This document shows, in pieces, positions 7,828 through 63,074 of a DNA stretch of 64,000 nucleotides. Origin of the DNA: Synechococcus sp. UW69 (GTDB lineage Bacteria; Cyanobacteriota; Cyanobacteriia; PCC-6307; Cyanobiaceae); assembly GCF_900474185.1 (NCBI RefSeq), contig NZ_UCNW01000008.1:62001-126000 (forward strand), given 5' to 3'. Position numbers and translations under genes: made by a program. Within the stretch, counting starts at the first letter, position 1. Each line of letters opens with the position of its first letter. The notes below the pieces were generated by a model that saw only the letters and a list, made by a program, of their open reading frames with translations, made no database searches and was not told the origin of the DNA.

Positions 7828-8166
7828 TCAACGAAGTTCATGATGACTGCAGCTTTCACAGGGTCCCTCGGGCCACACAGCACAGCGCAACAAAGGGCTG
7901 CGGGCATTGAAACGACAGTTTGGGTCGCCGATGACCCAGCCGTGTCGCCAGGGCGTTGCATCAGCAGGCCGAGACTGAGGTTTGACCATTAAGGCTACTG
8001 ACGCCATGACATAGCGCCCGTTGCGTAGGGCGTAGCGGTGGCGACGTTGCATCACTAGGAATGATTCATCCTTGACGACGAGCCATCGTCCAGGGTGTGG
8101 TGGGTCTGCAAGATCAACGCGGTTGATTAAATAATCACCACTGACGTGGCGAAGCTCAACAAGCAT
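7828..8166 (-). CDS. DUF6464 family protein
   Basis: 112 residues if begun at ATG 8166 (MLVELRHVSGDYL); a longer frame to 8232 would sit mostly inside the upstream gene. The stretch VMQRRHRYALRNGRYVMASV and the end HGWVIGDPNCRFNARSPLL...CAVWPEGPCESC agree with the cyanobacterial DUF6464 family as I remember it. Four cysteines near the end could bind metal. The start overlaps the 3' end of the TerC-like gene by 11 bases, so translation is probably coupled. Confidence 0.72.
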   Translation of the reverse strand: MLVELRHVSGDYLINRVDLADPPHPGRWLVVKDESFLVMQRRHRYALRNGRYVMASVALMVKPQSRPADATPWRHGWVIGDPNCRFNARSPLLRCAVWPEGPCESCSHHELR

Positions 8167-8893
8167 GGCTTTCGTCTTGATCGAGATCACTGGTTCGAAT
8201 TGACATTCCCCAAGCAAACAAAACCAATACAACCAGAAGCGTTAACCAGTCGGGTTGATTCAAGTCTGGAACGATGACGTGAACGATCAACCTAAAGGCA
8301 ACGAAAGCAACGGCAAGGAAACCAGCTGTTTCAAGGCGTGGGTACAGGTCAAGCCAGCGAATGAATAGGGCGGACGTGAAGCGCAAAGCCACGATCCCGA
8401 TAAAGGCTCCTGCACTGATCAGCAGGATTTGATCACTGATTGCCACCGCTGCGGCGACACTGTCGATGGAGAAGGCAAGATCAGTGAAGGCCAGAAGCAG
8501 AACGGTCTTGAGAAAGGGACGTTCACTGCGATCAGATCCATCGGCATCCAAAGCAGAGGCCAAATCGTCCGACCGGCTTTTGAAGTGATCCACCACAAGC
8601 CAAACGAGATAGGCAGCGGCGAAGAGCTGAACCCAAGTATTTTGCAAAACCCATTGGGCGACAACGATCAGGGCGATTCGCAACACCAGAGCCATGCCAA
8701 TACCAAGGTTGAGCGCCAGTCGCTCTTGCTCTGGCTGACGACTACTACGGGCAATGGCAGCAAGAGCGACGGCATTGTCAGCCGAAAGGATCAGCTCCAG
8801 GAGCACCAGCACGGGGAGTAGAGCAAAAATCTCTCCCCATTGGTCGGCACCTTCAAAGAAATCCGAAAGCGAGGGGAGCGAAGTGATGTCCAT
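8156..8893 (-). CDS. TerC family integral membrane protein
   Basis: 245 residues with about seven hydrophobic segments. The TerC signatures are visible: LILSADNAVALAAIA with its membrane Asp/Asn, and TDLAFSIDSVAAAVAIS, the internal-repeat counterpart. TerC relatives are implicated in manganese or calcium export and in metal loading of exported enzymes. In plants a TerC protein is needed for thylakoid membrane protein insertion. Substrate and membrane (plasma or thylakoid) cannot be told from sequence. The start codon is 38 bases from the divergent gene at 8932, so a shared promoter region is likely. Confidence 0.88.
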   Translation of the reverse strand: MDITSLPSLSDFFEGADQWGEIFALLPVLVLLELILSADNAVALAAIARSSRQPEQERLALNLGIGMALVLRIALIVVAQWVLQNTWVQLFAAAYLVWLVVDHFKSRSDDLASALDADGSDRSERPFLKTVLLLAFTDLAFSIDSVAAAVAISDQILLISAGAFIGIVALRFTSALFIRWLDLYPRLETAGFLAVAFVAFRLIVHVIVPDLNQPDWLTLLVVLVLFAWGMSIRTSDLDQDESHAC

Positions 8894-9900: not shown

Positions 9901-10092
9901 ATGAAACCTGACAACGAAATTATCGACCGACGCCACGAAGCTATTAGTTCGTACGCACTGGCAGCAGCGAAGCGGTCTAGGCAACCGATGAACTCAAAAG
10001 AAGTAACCGCCCAATCCACACGGGAAATTAGACGGTTCAACACTTCTCGTCGGGCCTCGCTCTACCCGGCTTTCAGGACAACGTGCTCCTGA
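9901..10092 (+). CDS. Possible small basic protein (doubtful)
   Basis: 63 codons from an ATG. The predicted product is rich in Arg/Ser/Ala and resembles nothing I know. Its 3' third is the GTCGGG..CCCGGC hairpin also seen in the dispersed repeat, which suggests the sequence may be conserved as DNA or RNA, not as protein. A weak hairpin with four T residues lies just after the stop (10102-10124). Treat as a candidate only. Confidence 0.2.
   Translation: MKPDNEIIDRRHEAISSYALAAAKRSRQPMNSKEVTAQSTREIRRFNTSRRASLYPAFRTTCS
10049..10070 (+). repeat. Solo hairpin related to the dispersed structured repeat
   Basis: The stem GTCGGG/CCCGGC (one G-T wobble) around a TCGCTC-containing loop is the same hairpin found at the 3' end of the two long repeat copies (11349-11370 on the minus strand and 41250-41271 on the plus strand). 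About 30 bases around it (tctcgtcggg..cccggctt) are also similar, but nothing upstream matches the rest of the element, so this is a truncated or independent copy. Confidence 0.6.
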
Positions 10093-10838
10093 CCATCAAA
10101 TAATGACTGGCAAGAGTCATTTTTAGAGAACATTGACGAGCAGTATGCGTAATCCGCATGAACAGGTTGGCTAATGAATGAAATCAAAGTTCAAACAACG
10201 TTTTAATCAAAGATTAAATTCTCCTAAGCCGCTTTGATGAAACTCCCCAATTTCTGCGCACGCATAGACATGTGATATTGCACTCTGCTTGAGAAGCAGA
10301 AAAAAGCCTGCAAGTCACAGGCTTTACTCAAAGCATACGAATAACACATAGCGACGCAATAGATGCACTTATTTATAAGAATGTGTTAGCGCCAGCCACT
10401 TACAGGAAACGACAGGCTGCTGGGAAAACCGACGCTCAGCTCATCGAAACAATTGACTCTTCAGCCTCCGAGTTCACACAGAAGCACGCTTATGAACAAC
10501 GATGGACTCGTCCCTGTGTCGCCGACGTGAAGCAGACGGTAATGACCGCTACCCAACACGCAGCGTGGACCTTGACGCTCTACTCCAACAACGTCGATGA
10601 CGTCCTCCGTCATCCGTTGTGAGAGTCGTTATCTGCGGAGTGAACGCCATGCCTATCTGCACTGATCGAAAGGGACTGGGGCGATGAGCTTCATCACGAA
10701 CGGTGCGATCGACGGGTCAAGCGTTGGTCTGCTGGCATCGCACAGGTGTTCACTCAGCTAGAAGCTGGAACAGGCATGGTTTGGTCACTGACAAGAGAGT
10801 TAGACCTGAGCAGGGTGGGAACAATTAATTCCAGCCTC
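10093..10838. other. Intergenic accessory DNA with hairpins, no convincing gene
   Basis: About 750 bases. I see a weak hairpin at 10102-10121, a pair of hairpins at 10284-10325 (listed separately) and a 79-codon open frame at 10383-10622 from GTG whose product (LAPATYRKRQAAGKTDAQL...) matches nothing I know. No tRNA or strong coding signal was found. Confidence 0.5.
10284..10325 (-). terminator. Double hairpin, terminator-like on the minus strand
   Basis: Two perfect hairpins in tandem: TCTGCTT-gag-AAGCAGA (10284-10300) and AAAGCCTG-caagtca-CAGGCTTT (10303-10325). Read on the minus strand, the second stem is followed by six T residues, the form of an intrinsic terminator. There is no recognised minus-strand gene close upstream (to its right), so what it terminates is unknown; a small RNA is possible. 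Confidence 0.5.
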
Positions 10839-11224: not shown

Positions 11225-11520
11225 GCCTATCAGAAATCTCGGAACAAGCCGACATTTTGTGGATCTCGGGAAAGTGCTCACTGCGGCACTACACCCACGC
11301 ACTTTTCGGCCCATCATCGAGTCGTCGGGTCGCTAGGTGGACCCGAAAGCCGGGCAGAGCGATGCCCGACGAGAGCAGCGATTTGGCCTCGGCTTCGGCC
11401 GGGGTCAAGTCCGTTCTTCCTTAAGAAATTTGGTGGTGTATCGCAAGACACTCCCTGGGCAATCAAGCTACTTACGTGGCCGAATCGCTCCGGTGATGCA
11501 TCACCGTCGGCCACACAACA
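11225..11520 (-). repeat. Structured dispersed repeat, copy 1
   Basis: Reads on the minus strand from 11520 to 11225 and aligns along most of its length with 41097-41408 on the plus strand. Parts visible: a stem GTGGCCGA/TCGGCCAC (11507-11514 with 11476-11483) enclosing the perfect palindrome CGGTGATGCATCACCG; a conserved block around AACGGACTTGACCCC; the hairpin at 11349-11370; and a distal block GATGGGCCGAAAAGTG. A frame of 111 codons (11314-11649) runs across it, but conservation between copies is concentrated in the stems, including third codon positions. Confidence 0.7.
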
Positions 11521-12301
11521 TTCACTGATTCTCGGCCGACACCGCATCGAATTCGAAAGCTGAACTCTCAGCCATCGCTCACGAAATACATGTAGAGCCG
11601 TTTTAAAACTAAGAGGTTCCAACCACCCCAGACCCAGGCCAACGCTCAAAGCCTGGGTTTTTTATTGCGTTTTCACAGCTAATCAACGCCAAACCAACTG
11701 CCAACAGGTTGAAGGCCTAGCTCTGCTATCGGCAACCCGCTGCGCTGCAACGCTTTGTAGTAGCGCTGAAGCGCGCGAGCAAGCCATTGCTTGCCTCAAT
11801 AGAGCCTCGGCGATTCAACGAAACAAATGATCGAGCCGTCACTAAGTCAGCCCTTTACTGAGATTTATGTAAAACGACATGCTTCTGGACGAGTACGCTC
11901 TTGGATCAATCAAATACCAAGGCTTCGACAAATAAAAATAAGCAATTGGACTCAGGAATGTTCCAATTCACTGACTTAAAACAGGTTTGCGGCAGGGACA
12001 GATACGGCGTCCATGCCGATTGCGGCAGAGTGAATCGTCTAAAACTCTGCGCATTCCGGCCATTTCCCCTGCTTCGTTCCTGAAGGGGGAGATGGCCCCT
12101 GTCTGTGGCCCCAGACACAGAGCTTGAATTCATACCATAAATATGAAGCTTATCTTTGATGAACTCAAGAGGTATTTCTGATCCACAAGAGAGACTCAAT
12201 AAAAACATGCAAAGCTTGCATGTTGAATAGCATTACTTGAATCAATATTACATGTCAGGACAACGACTGTAGACAGGAAAAACCTGTCGCTCCATGCAAT
12301 C
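11521..12301. other. Intergenic accessory DNA
   Basis: About 780 bases with no supported protein gene. It holds one strong plus-strand terminator at 11632-11663 (listed separately) and a perfect hairpin ACATGCAA-agc-TTGCATGT near 12206-12224. Open frames at 11901-12083 (+) and 11906-12208 (-) overlap each other and have no recognisable product. A second hairpin GACAGG-aaaaa-CCTGTC lies near 12273-12289, just beyond the stop of the minus-strand gene at 12302. Confidence 0.5.
11632..11663 (+). terminator. Strong intrinsic terminator with no obvious gene before it
   Basis: Perfect 8-bp stem ACCCAGGC/GCCTGGGT with an 11-base loop, followed by TTTTTTATT. The plus strand upstream carries no supported coding gene for about 440 bases, only the antisense of repeat copy 1 and the stretch 11521-11631. 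A short non-coding RNA ending here is the simplest explanation. Confidence 0.75.
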
Positions 12302-39965: not shown

Positions 39966-40052
39966 GGAGAGGTGGTCGAGTGGTTTATGGCTCTGGTCTT
40001 GAAAACCAGCGTGTCTTCACGGGCACCGTGGGTTCGAATCCCACCCTCTCCG
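39966..40052 (+). tRNA. tRNA-Ser (anticodon UGA)
   Basis: 87 bases. Acceptor stem GGAGAGG/CCTCTCC, anticodon stem CTGGT/ACCAG with loop CTTGAAA giving anticodon TGA, a long variable arm (CGTGTCTTCACGGGCACC) as expected for serine, and T arm GTGGG-TTCGAAT-CCCAC. The discriminator is G and no CCA is encoded. It lies 58 bases downstream of nrdJ and at the left edge of the second accessory stretch, a common place for integration, although no integrase is seen. Confidence 0.95.
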
Positions 40053-40934: not shown

Positions 40935-41096
40935 TGGAAGTGCTGGCCAACCCAGCGCTATCAGCACTCCGTCGAACATTCGATCAGGGCGTCAGTAAAG
41001 CACTCCCTTCCACCACAACAGGCATTGCATTGACGGCCTCAACAGACATCCAAGTCCAGGAGCTTGGTATATCGAAAATACTGTTGAAGTATCAAA

Positions 41097-41408
41097 GAAA
41101 TGTTTGTGGTCGACGGTGATGCACCACCGGAGCGATTCGACCACGCGCTCACATTGATAGGCGTGGAGACAATATGGAGTTCAGCACCAAATCTCTTAAC
41201 AAAGAACGGACTTGACCCCAGTCGAAACAAGGGTCAAATCTCAGCTCTCGTCGGGCATCGCTCTGCCCGGCTTCCAAGCCCCATTAGCAGCTTTGGCATG
41301 ACCACTATGGGCCGAAAAGTGTGTGATTTCGTTGAAGACAGCGACAATTTTTCGACATTCACAAATTCCGTTCGAGTCTCGGAATGATTCCCCTCTAGAT
41401 GGCCTAGC
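41097..41408 (+). repeat. Structured dispersed repeat, copy 2
   Basis: Aligns with the minus-strand copy at 11225-11520. From left to right: a stem GTGGTCGA/TCGACCAC (41106-41113 with 41137-41144) enclosing CGGTG/CACCG; a conserved block with AAGAACGGACTTGACCCC; a perfect 7-bp stem TTGACCC/GGGTCAA (41212-41218 with 41231-41237); the hairpin GTCGGGCA/TGCCCGGC (41250-41271); and a distal block with ATGGGCCGAAAAGTG. In copy 1 the first stem is GTGGCCGA/TCGGCCAC: both partners changed together. A 95-codon frame (41100-41387) crosses it. Confidence 0.72.
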
Positions 41409-61929: not shown

Positions 61930-62300
61930 TCATCTCTGCTGGATTGATGCCTTGCTCGATGAGTACAACACCTTAAGGCTGACGACGGCTTCACCATCTT
62001 CATCAAGTTCCAGTGCATCAGCAGCTCCATAGGCAAGGTCGATAACCGTGCCCTTCTTGAAGGGTTAACGGTCGTTGATCACGACAATCACACTTTCATT
62101 GGTGTCTCCTCGCTTCACTTTGACCTTTGCTCCCAAAGGCAACTGGAAGTGGGCTGATAAGAAGAGTGTGGGGGAGAGTCCACGTGGGCCTCGATCCCCC
62201 TCAGAGGTGGGGAGAGTCCGTTAGGCCTCGATCCCCTTGTGGCGGCCGCTTTCGCTGCCAGACCCACAAGTCCACCATGGTGAACATCGGCAGGAGCTAG
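61930..62300 (-). pseudogene. RlpA-like (double-psi beta-barrel) pseudogene
   Basis: On the minus strand, AHFQLPLGAKVKVKRGDTNE and SVIVVINDR, then TAA where the family has Gly, then PFKKGTVIDLAYGAADALEL, fit the RlpA barrel (typically INDRGPF followed by a VIDLS stretch). The in-frame TAA lies in the conserved core. Upstream, the expected FHG..TASG part is disrupted by a doublet of hairpins at 62171-62236. A functional RlpA-type lytic transglycosylase is excluded. It is a decayed copy. Confidence 0.75.
62171..62236. repeat. REP-like tandem hairpin doublet
   Basis: Two near-identical units (62171-62199 and 62209-62236), each GGGGAGAGTCC, a short loop, then GGCCTCGATCCCC. Each folds as GGGGA/TCCCC, GAG/CTC and CC/GG with a GA bulge. 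The loops differ (ACGTG versus GTTA) while the stems are identical, as expected for REP-type elements. They lie inside the RlpA-like relic. Confidence 0.65.
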
Positions 62301-62760: not shown

Positions 62761-63074
62761 CTGAGGGATAGAAGGGGCCGGGGTCCGGCCACATCGGGAG
62801 TGGATTGCCCACTTTCCACTCGACAACAGACATTGTCTATTCCGTTACGGAACCGGATGTTTTTAGAGAAGAGCGGAAATAACCCCAGTTAGCACTGAGC
62901 CCAAATCACATCCTCGTTAAACATCGCTCTGGATGGGATCCGAATTGAATAAGTACCCGTTAATCACCATGATGAGCGCGATTACCTGTGTGCATCGTGA
63001 ATGTCAAAAGAGCTCATCGACATCAAAATCCACTGCGACATCTGGCATTACTGGTGACGGGATCCGAGGTGTAT
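62761..63074. other. Intergenic accessory DNA
   Basis: About 310 bases. Only the GGCCGG-ggt-CCGGCC inverted repeat near 62777-62791 stands out. No frame with recognisable coding character was found on either strand. Confidence 0.4.

Follow-up and report, generated by a model that had tools for sequence, protein, structure and literature searches.

The window analysed here is a 64-kb stretch of the 2.37-Mb genome of Synechococcus sp. UW69 (G000), positions 62001–126000 of contig C8, and it contains two long copies of a structured repeat as well as a decayed and a probable decayed copy (Table 1). The alignable length of the repeat is 274–275 nt, and copy 1 spans about 274 nt at 11251–11524 on the + strand; the extent first given for it, 11225–11520 and about 300 bases, was nearly right. 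Besides copy 1, long copies are present in the same genome at 41096–41370 (−) in the window (copy 3), at C2:46388–46662 (+) (copy 2) and at C11:110788–111052 (−) (copy 4). A further copy, weaker than the two decayed ones of the window, lies at C8:372042–372235 (−) with 24.3 bits. The similarity exceeds chance, as judged from the blastn E-values obtained with copy 1 (1.4e-49 for the copy on contig C2 and 1.5e-34 for that at 41 kb) and from the folding z-score of copy 1, which is −3.65 on the + strand and −1.02 on the other. What had been taken for a solo hairpin is the best-kept portion of the decayed copy at 9995–10165. At the gathering threshold, Rfam yields only one tRNA within the 64-kb window. 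The neighbouring genes gave no function for the element, one of nine proteins passing the Pfam cut-off (a TerC protein at 8156–8893).

Table 1. Features of the element and its surroundings in the window; percentages refer to alignment cells that are paired, and the counts after them to pairs altered on both sides.
Feature	Position	Strand	Evidence or remark
Copy 1 of the structured RNA, a group C member (conserved extent only)	11251–11524	+	R1 273.8 bits, training member; blastn relatives; Rfam Cyano-2 31.8 bits over 11348–11523
P1, the weakest helix (11266–11272 with 11303–11309)	11266–11309	+	75.9%; 1 of 7
P2 hairpin	11325–11346	+	95.9%; 6 of 7
P3 hairpin, loop GAGCGAT at 11357–11363	11351–11368	+	96.3%; 4 of 5
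P4 hairpin (helices 5 and 6)	11380–11411	+	86.7% and 86.2%; 12 of 14
Unpaired segment CTTAAGAAATTTGGTG, conserved and with a similar counterpart in canonical Cyano-2	11420–11435	+	Alignments
3' hairpin (helices 7 and 8): outer stem 11476–11483/11507–11514, inner stem 11491–11496/11501–11506, 5' bulge ATCGCTC 11484–11490	11476–11514	+	100% and 98.4%; 3 of 14
Proposed pseudoknot, loop 11357–11363 with bulge 11484–11490	11357–11490	+	98.7%; five one-sided G-U changes, no double change
Copy 3, group B (tRNA-Ser site)	41096–41370	−	R1 252.7 bits, training member; Cyano-2 30.6 bits over 41099–41272; tree
Decayed copy lacking the 3' half	9995–10165	−	R1 38.7 bits, E 4.8e-10, outside training
Probable decayed copy lacking the 3' hairpin	62797–63032	−	R1 35.2 bits, E 4.6e-9, outside training
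tRNA-Ser(UGA), lying convergent to group B copies and here some 1 kb away from copy 3	39966–40052	+	

Relatives of the element were detected by blastn in 20 of the 34 genomes of the genus. At E ≤ 1e-6, a covariance model built from 32 copies (R1) matched 44 loci in 21 of the 34 genomes, comprising the 32 training copies and 12 new ones. Under strict filters the same model found matches in 16 of 300 family genomes, in 1 of 59 genera, namely this genus alone. In the tree of the 32 copies, copies 1 and 2 belong to group C (seven rows, 96/93), and copy 3 clusters with the tRNA-Ser copies in group B (eight rows, 88/82). Group A does not come out as a clade; its ten rows have common flanks and include copy 4. 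The remaining seven rows are diverged and fall into none of the three groups. The term dispersed repeat is half right: groups A and B occupy shared sites, with flanks common between genomes, whereas three genomes carry two group C copies each. A group C copy of genome G023 (L029) is also found near tRNA-Ser(UGA), which makes the sites less than fully group-specific. Long matches to copy 1 are 72–80% identical, which indicates that its spread was not recent. A phage origin was considered and rejected: blastn gave no match in 50,697 phage records, and the lone match to a viral contig was without the closing half of the hairpin.

The proposed structure comprises 54 pairs, distributed over P1–P4, the 3' hairpin with its two stems, and a pseudoknot. 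Changes on both sides with pairing kept were observed at 26 of the 54 pairs in the 32 copies, compared with 12.6 in shuffles, a control that does not preserve the relatedness of the copies. Standard pairs accounted for 92.1% of the cells versus 86.9% in shuffles and at most 47.3% with the partners slid, the slid control being partly circular because the alignment was made by sequence alone and part of the structure was derived with RNAalifold from that same alignment. The observed covariation values were reached by none of 500 shuffles. Helices P2 to P4 and the 3' hairpin are shown by this comparison of copies. The outer stem of the 3' hairpin had been recognised correctly, GTGGCCGA pairing with TCGGCCAC in copy 1 (11476–11483 with 11507–11514) and GTGGTCGA with TCGACCAC in the copy at 41 kb (41106–41113 with 41137–41144). 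The compensatory C-to-T and G-to-A exchange noted there is real, the pair being UA in 15, UG in 12 and CG in 5 of the 32 copies, and random, non-compensatory stem changes, named in the preliminary description as a refuting outcome, were not found among these copies. The inner palindrome, described as perfect, is so in copy 1, whereas the innermost pair of copy 3 is G-U on the RNA strand.

In the nested helices without P1, 165 cells are G-U, 13 are A-C and 65 are other mismatches. As G-U and A-C change places on the opposite strand, the excess of G-U assigns the RNA to the + strand of copy 1, and an RNA read from the opposite strand was rejected on this asymmetry. The earlier suggestion of selection on RNA structure is strongly supported by the covariation together with the same asymmetry. 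Over the 32 copies, the mean folding z-score was −3.20 for the RNA strand and −2.45 for the opposite one, with the RNA strand lower in 23 copies; the opposite strand thus also folds better than shuffles, which makes folding of single sequences a weak guide to the strand. Protein coding was rejected because frames are not conserved (only 9 of the 32 copies have a frame open from end to end, in differing frames), copy lengths range from 265 to 287 and not in steps of three, and the variable sites lack a three-base period (24/22/20 in six group A rows and 37/39/40 in three group B rows). Identity at third codon positions, remarked upon previously, therefore carries no coding meaning, even though a frame is open in copy 1. 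A simple scan found no consensus promoter at either long copy of the window. Among candidate intrinsic terminators, the scan flagged P4 of copy 1, yet P4 sits within the element and the candidate was discarded.

A pseudoknot is likely between the P3 loop GAGCGAU and the bulge in the 3' hairpin, AUCGCUC, two sequences that are complementary; of the 224 cells concerned, 215 are Watson-Crick, 5 are G-U and 4 are unpaired or gapped. The loop is intact in 27 of the 32 copies and the bulge in 31 of the 32 variant rows. With zero double changes in loop and bulge, covariation does not prove the pseudoknot. Joint loss of loop and bulge was considered as support and rejected: the 3' hairpin is missing from five of eight decayed copies, four of these having an altered loop, and among the three that keep the hairpin the loop is kept in one. 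Three copies have a short form consisting of P2, P3 and a P4-like inverted repeat (GAACCGYCYAAT..ATTGGGCGG) without the 3' half, namely that at 9995–10165 (−) in the window, L171 (G000:C8:371800–372450) and L166 (G023:C1:912400–913050), and the P3 loop is altered in all three. In copy 4 (C11:110788–111052), which occupies the group A site, the P3 stem and some of the P2 region are gone, and the 3' hairpin is intact.

The statement in the preliminary description that no known RNA fits proved wrong. When searched by E-value threshold, copy 1 matches the Rfam model of Cyano-2 (RF01702) with 31.8 bits (E 6.4e-6) over model positions 1–204 of 204, below the curated cut-off, and copy 3 scores 30.6 bits; the full-model alignment is co-linear and covers the 3' two thirds of the element. 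None of 20 loci, among which L005 overlaps with a second one, reached the gathering score of 40 bits, and the best variant copy has 37.3 bits. In the 34 genomes there are 11 sub-threshold RF01702 matches, and 9 of these coincide with independently found elements. This coincidence is the main argument for common descent with Cyano-2, since isolated matches of such strength can be false; RF01702 also scores 28.6 and 27.8 bits in another genus, where weak matches of this kind may be false. Homologues outside the genus were rejected as candidates: R2, a full-length canonical model, and RF01702 gave 16–29 bits in other genera, where, of the matches inspected, L092, L093 and L150 resemble protein genes, presumably for peroxiredoxin or photolyase, and L151 has no visible shared motif.

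Canonical Cyano-2 is found above the cut-off in 19 of the 34 genomes, including the same genome as copy 1 (C11:90678–90880, 174.2 bits). Genome G029 holds five canonical copies together with two of the variant. The reverse test was weak in both directions, with at most 17.2 bits for R1 on 28 canonical loci and at most 18.1 bits for R2 on 32 variant loci, and the element is therefore called a sister variant and not a member of Cyano-2. Both RNAs occur in the same genus in several copies per genome and have the same order of parts, that is, a hairpin with a GAGCGA loop, a single strand resembling AAGA-A-UUUGGUG and a 3' hairpin with the AUCGCUC 5' bulge, the last present in 25 of 26 canonical rows. 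The GAGCGAU/AUCGCUC complement is retained in canonical Cyano-2, in which the loop is present twice; the second loop, complete in 25 of 26 canonical rows with one gap, is a Cyano-2 feature that the tip of the variant P4 lacks. P1 and P2 of the variant, on the other hand, have no counterpart in the Rfam model, which starts at P3, and the stems of the 3' hairpin differ. A further difference is a palindrome, GTR-N8-YAC, found in 17 of 27 canonical Cyano-2 copies and in 1 of 32 variants within 150 nt upstream, which resembles the consensus of an NtcA site. In the canonical copies (L056–L096) it lies 120–141 nt before the start of the Cyano-2 model, by raw count. Neither canonical Cyano-2 nor a variant copy was found in the near-complete genomes G001, G003 and G030 of the genus, where the RNA is either dispensable or too diverged. 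For the interpretation as a whole, including the parts put here as likely or conditional, it is quite probable that the element encodes a structured RNA without protein-coding function, related to Cyano-2 as a divergent sister and present alongside its canonical form in marine Synechococcus. Cyano-2 itself was described by Weinberg et al. (2010, PMC2864571); in the literature searched, which left most subscription papers out of reach, neither the variant nor a function of Cyano-2 was found.

A related question is whether the element belongs to the Yfr103 family, which is reported to comprise seven paralogous ncRNAs of 290–328 nt that in a Red Sea sample supplied 55.2% of the reads of Synechococcus CC9605, with enigmatic function, a palindrome at −29 to −58 and occurrence in Prochlorococcus and KORDI-49 (PMC5069720). 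The similar length (about 300 nt), the several paralogues per genome, the conserved structure and the origin in marine Synechococcus agree with such an assignment, and the position of GTR-N8-YAC before canonical Cyano-2 would fit −29 to −58 if the transcript were about 290 nt or slightly longer. Yfr103 differs, however, in being reported from Prochlorococcus and from strains where neither R1 nor RF01702 scores, the two models having no credible match outside the genus among 300 family genomes under strict filters. The palindrome is moreover absent upstream of 31 of the 32 variant copies, and G002, which we take to be the genome of CC9605, carries five canonical and three variant copies and not the seven of Yfr103. 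Length and copy number of Yfr103 fit the Cyano-2 superfamily, and membership of the element in Yfr103 is regarded as possible, though it is the less probable outcome.

Two readings that dispense with a free RNA gene fare considerably worse. A mobile DNA repeat, for instance a non-autonomous transposon, with hairpins that serve as signals in the DNA would agree with the presence of several copies in a genome, with their occurrence on both strands and with the spacing of only 2.4 kb between two of them in G008. The G-U to A-C ratio of 165 to 13, however, favours one strand and points to RNA, the matches to copy 1 reflect old spread, and groups A and B keep common flanks between genomes; such an origin is very improbable. 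Slightly less credible still is a cis-acting riboswitch or leader, which the complex, pseudoknot-like fold would suit. In group B the element ends 41–54 nt from a convergent tRNA-Ser(UGA) gene in all seven loci measured, which leaves no room there for a cis-controlled gene, and no same-strand downstream gene is conserved at these loci; the neighbours vary between the loci compared. For group B, independence of a downstream gene is shown by this comparison, and the element looks free-standing.

The RNA would have its own promoter and may act in trans as a regulatory or sequestering sRNA, its compact core exposing the conserved single strand AAGAAAUUUGGUG so that a target, either RNA or protein, can bind. 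The copies would stem from old duplications, with two sites inherited vertically, one group multiplied and some copies now decaying. A bolder proposal, which is speculative and held to be unlikely, is that canonical Cyano-2 and the variant form one superfamily whose GAGCGAU/AUCGCUC elements, with one or two loops per bulge, could pair within the molecule or kiss between paralogues. Transcripts that rank among the most abundant in marine picocyanobacteria would in that case be linked into a network that can be switched.

Marine Synechococcus is a major phototroph of the ocean, and genes of the variant RNA are missed when Rfam is applied with its curated cut-off. The alignment supplies a tested fold, the strand, groups of copies and a pseudoknot open to mutation, so that the role of Cyano-2 becomes easier to address. 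Should Yfr103 be part of this superfamily, the results would concern an ncRNA family from which, in one study, more than half of the CC9605 reads came.

Some further elements were noted near the copies. About 108 nt downstream of copy 1, at 11633–11663 in the window, there is an inverted repeat CCCAGGC/GCCTGGG with a loop of 11 bases, followed by TTTTTT, and a similar inverted repeat is located upstream of L029 in G023. The 3.3-kb locus that holds copy 2 (L002, G000:C2:44893–48160) contains two glutamine-II riboswitch matches and one Cyano-1 RNA (RF01701). Cyano-1 resembles the element in being an sRNA family of marine picocyanobacteria; it differs in having a model of 69 positions, none of whose matches falls on the element.
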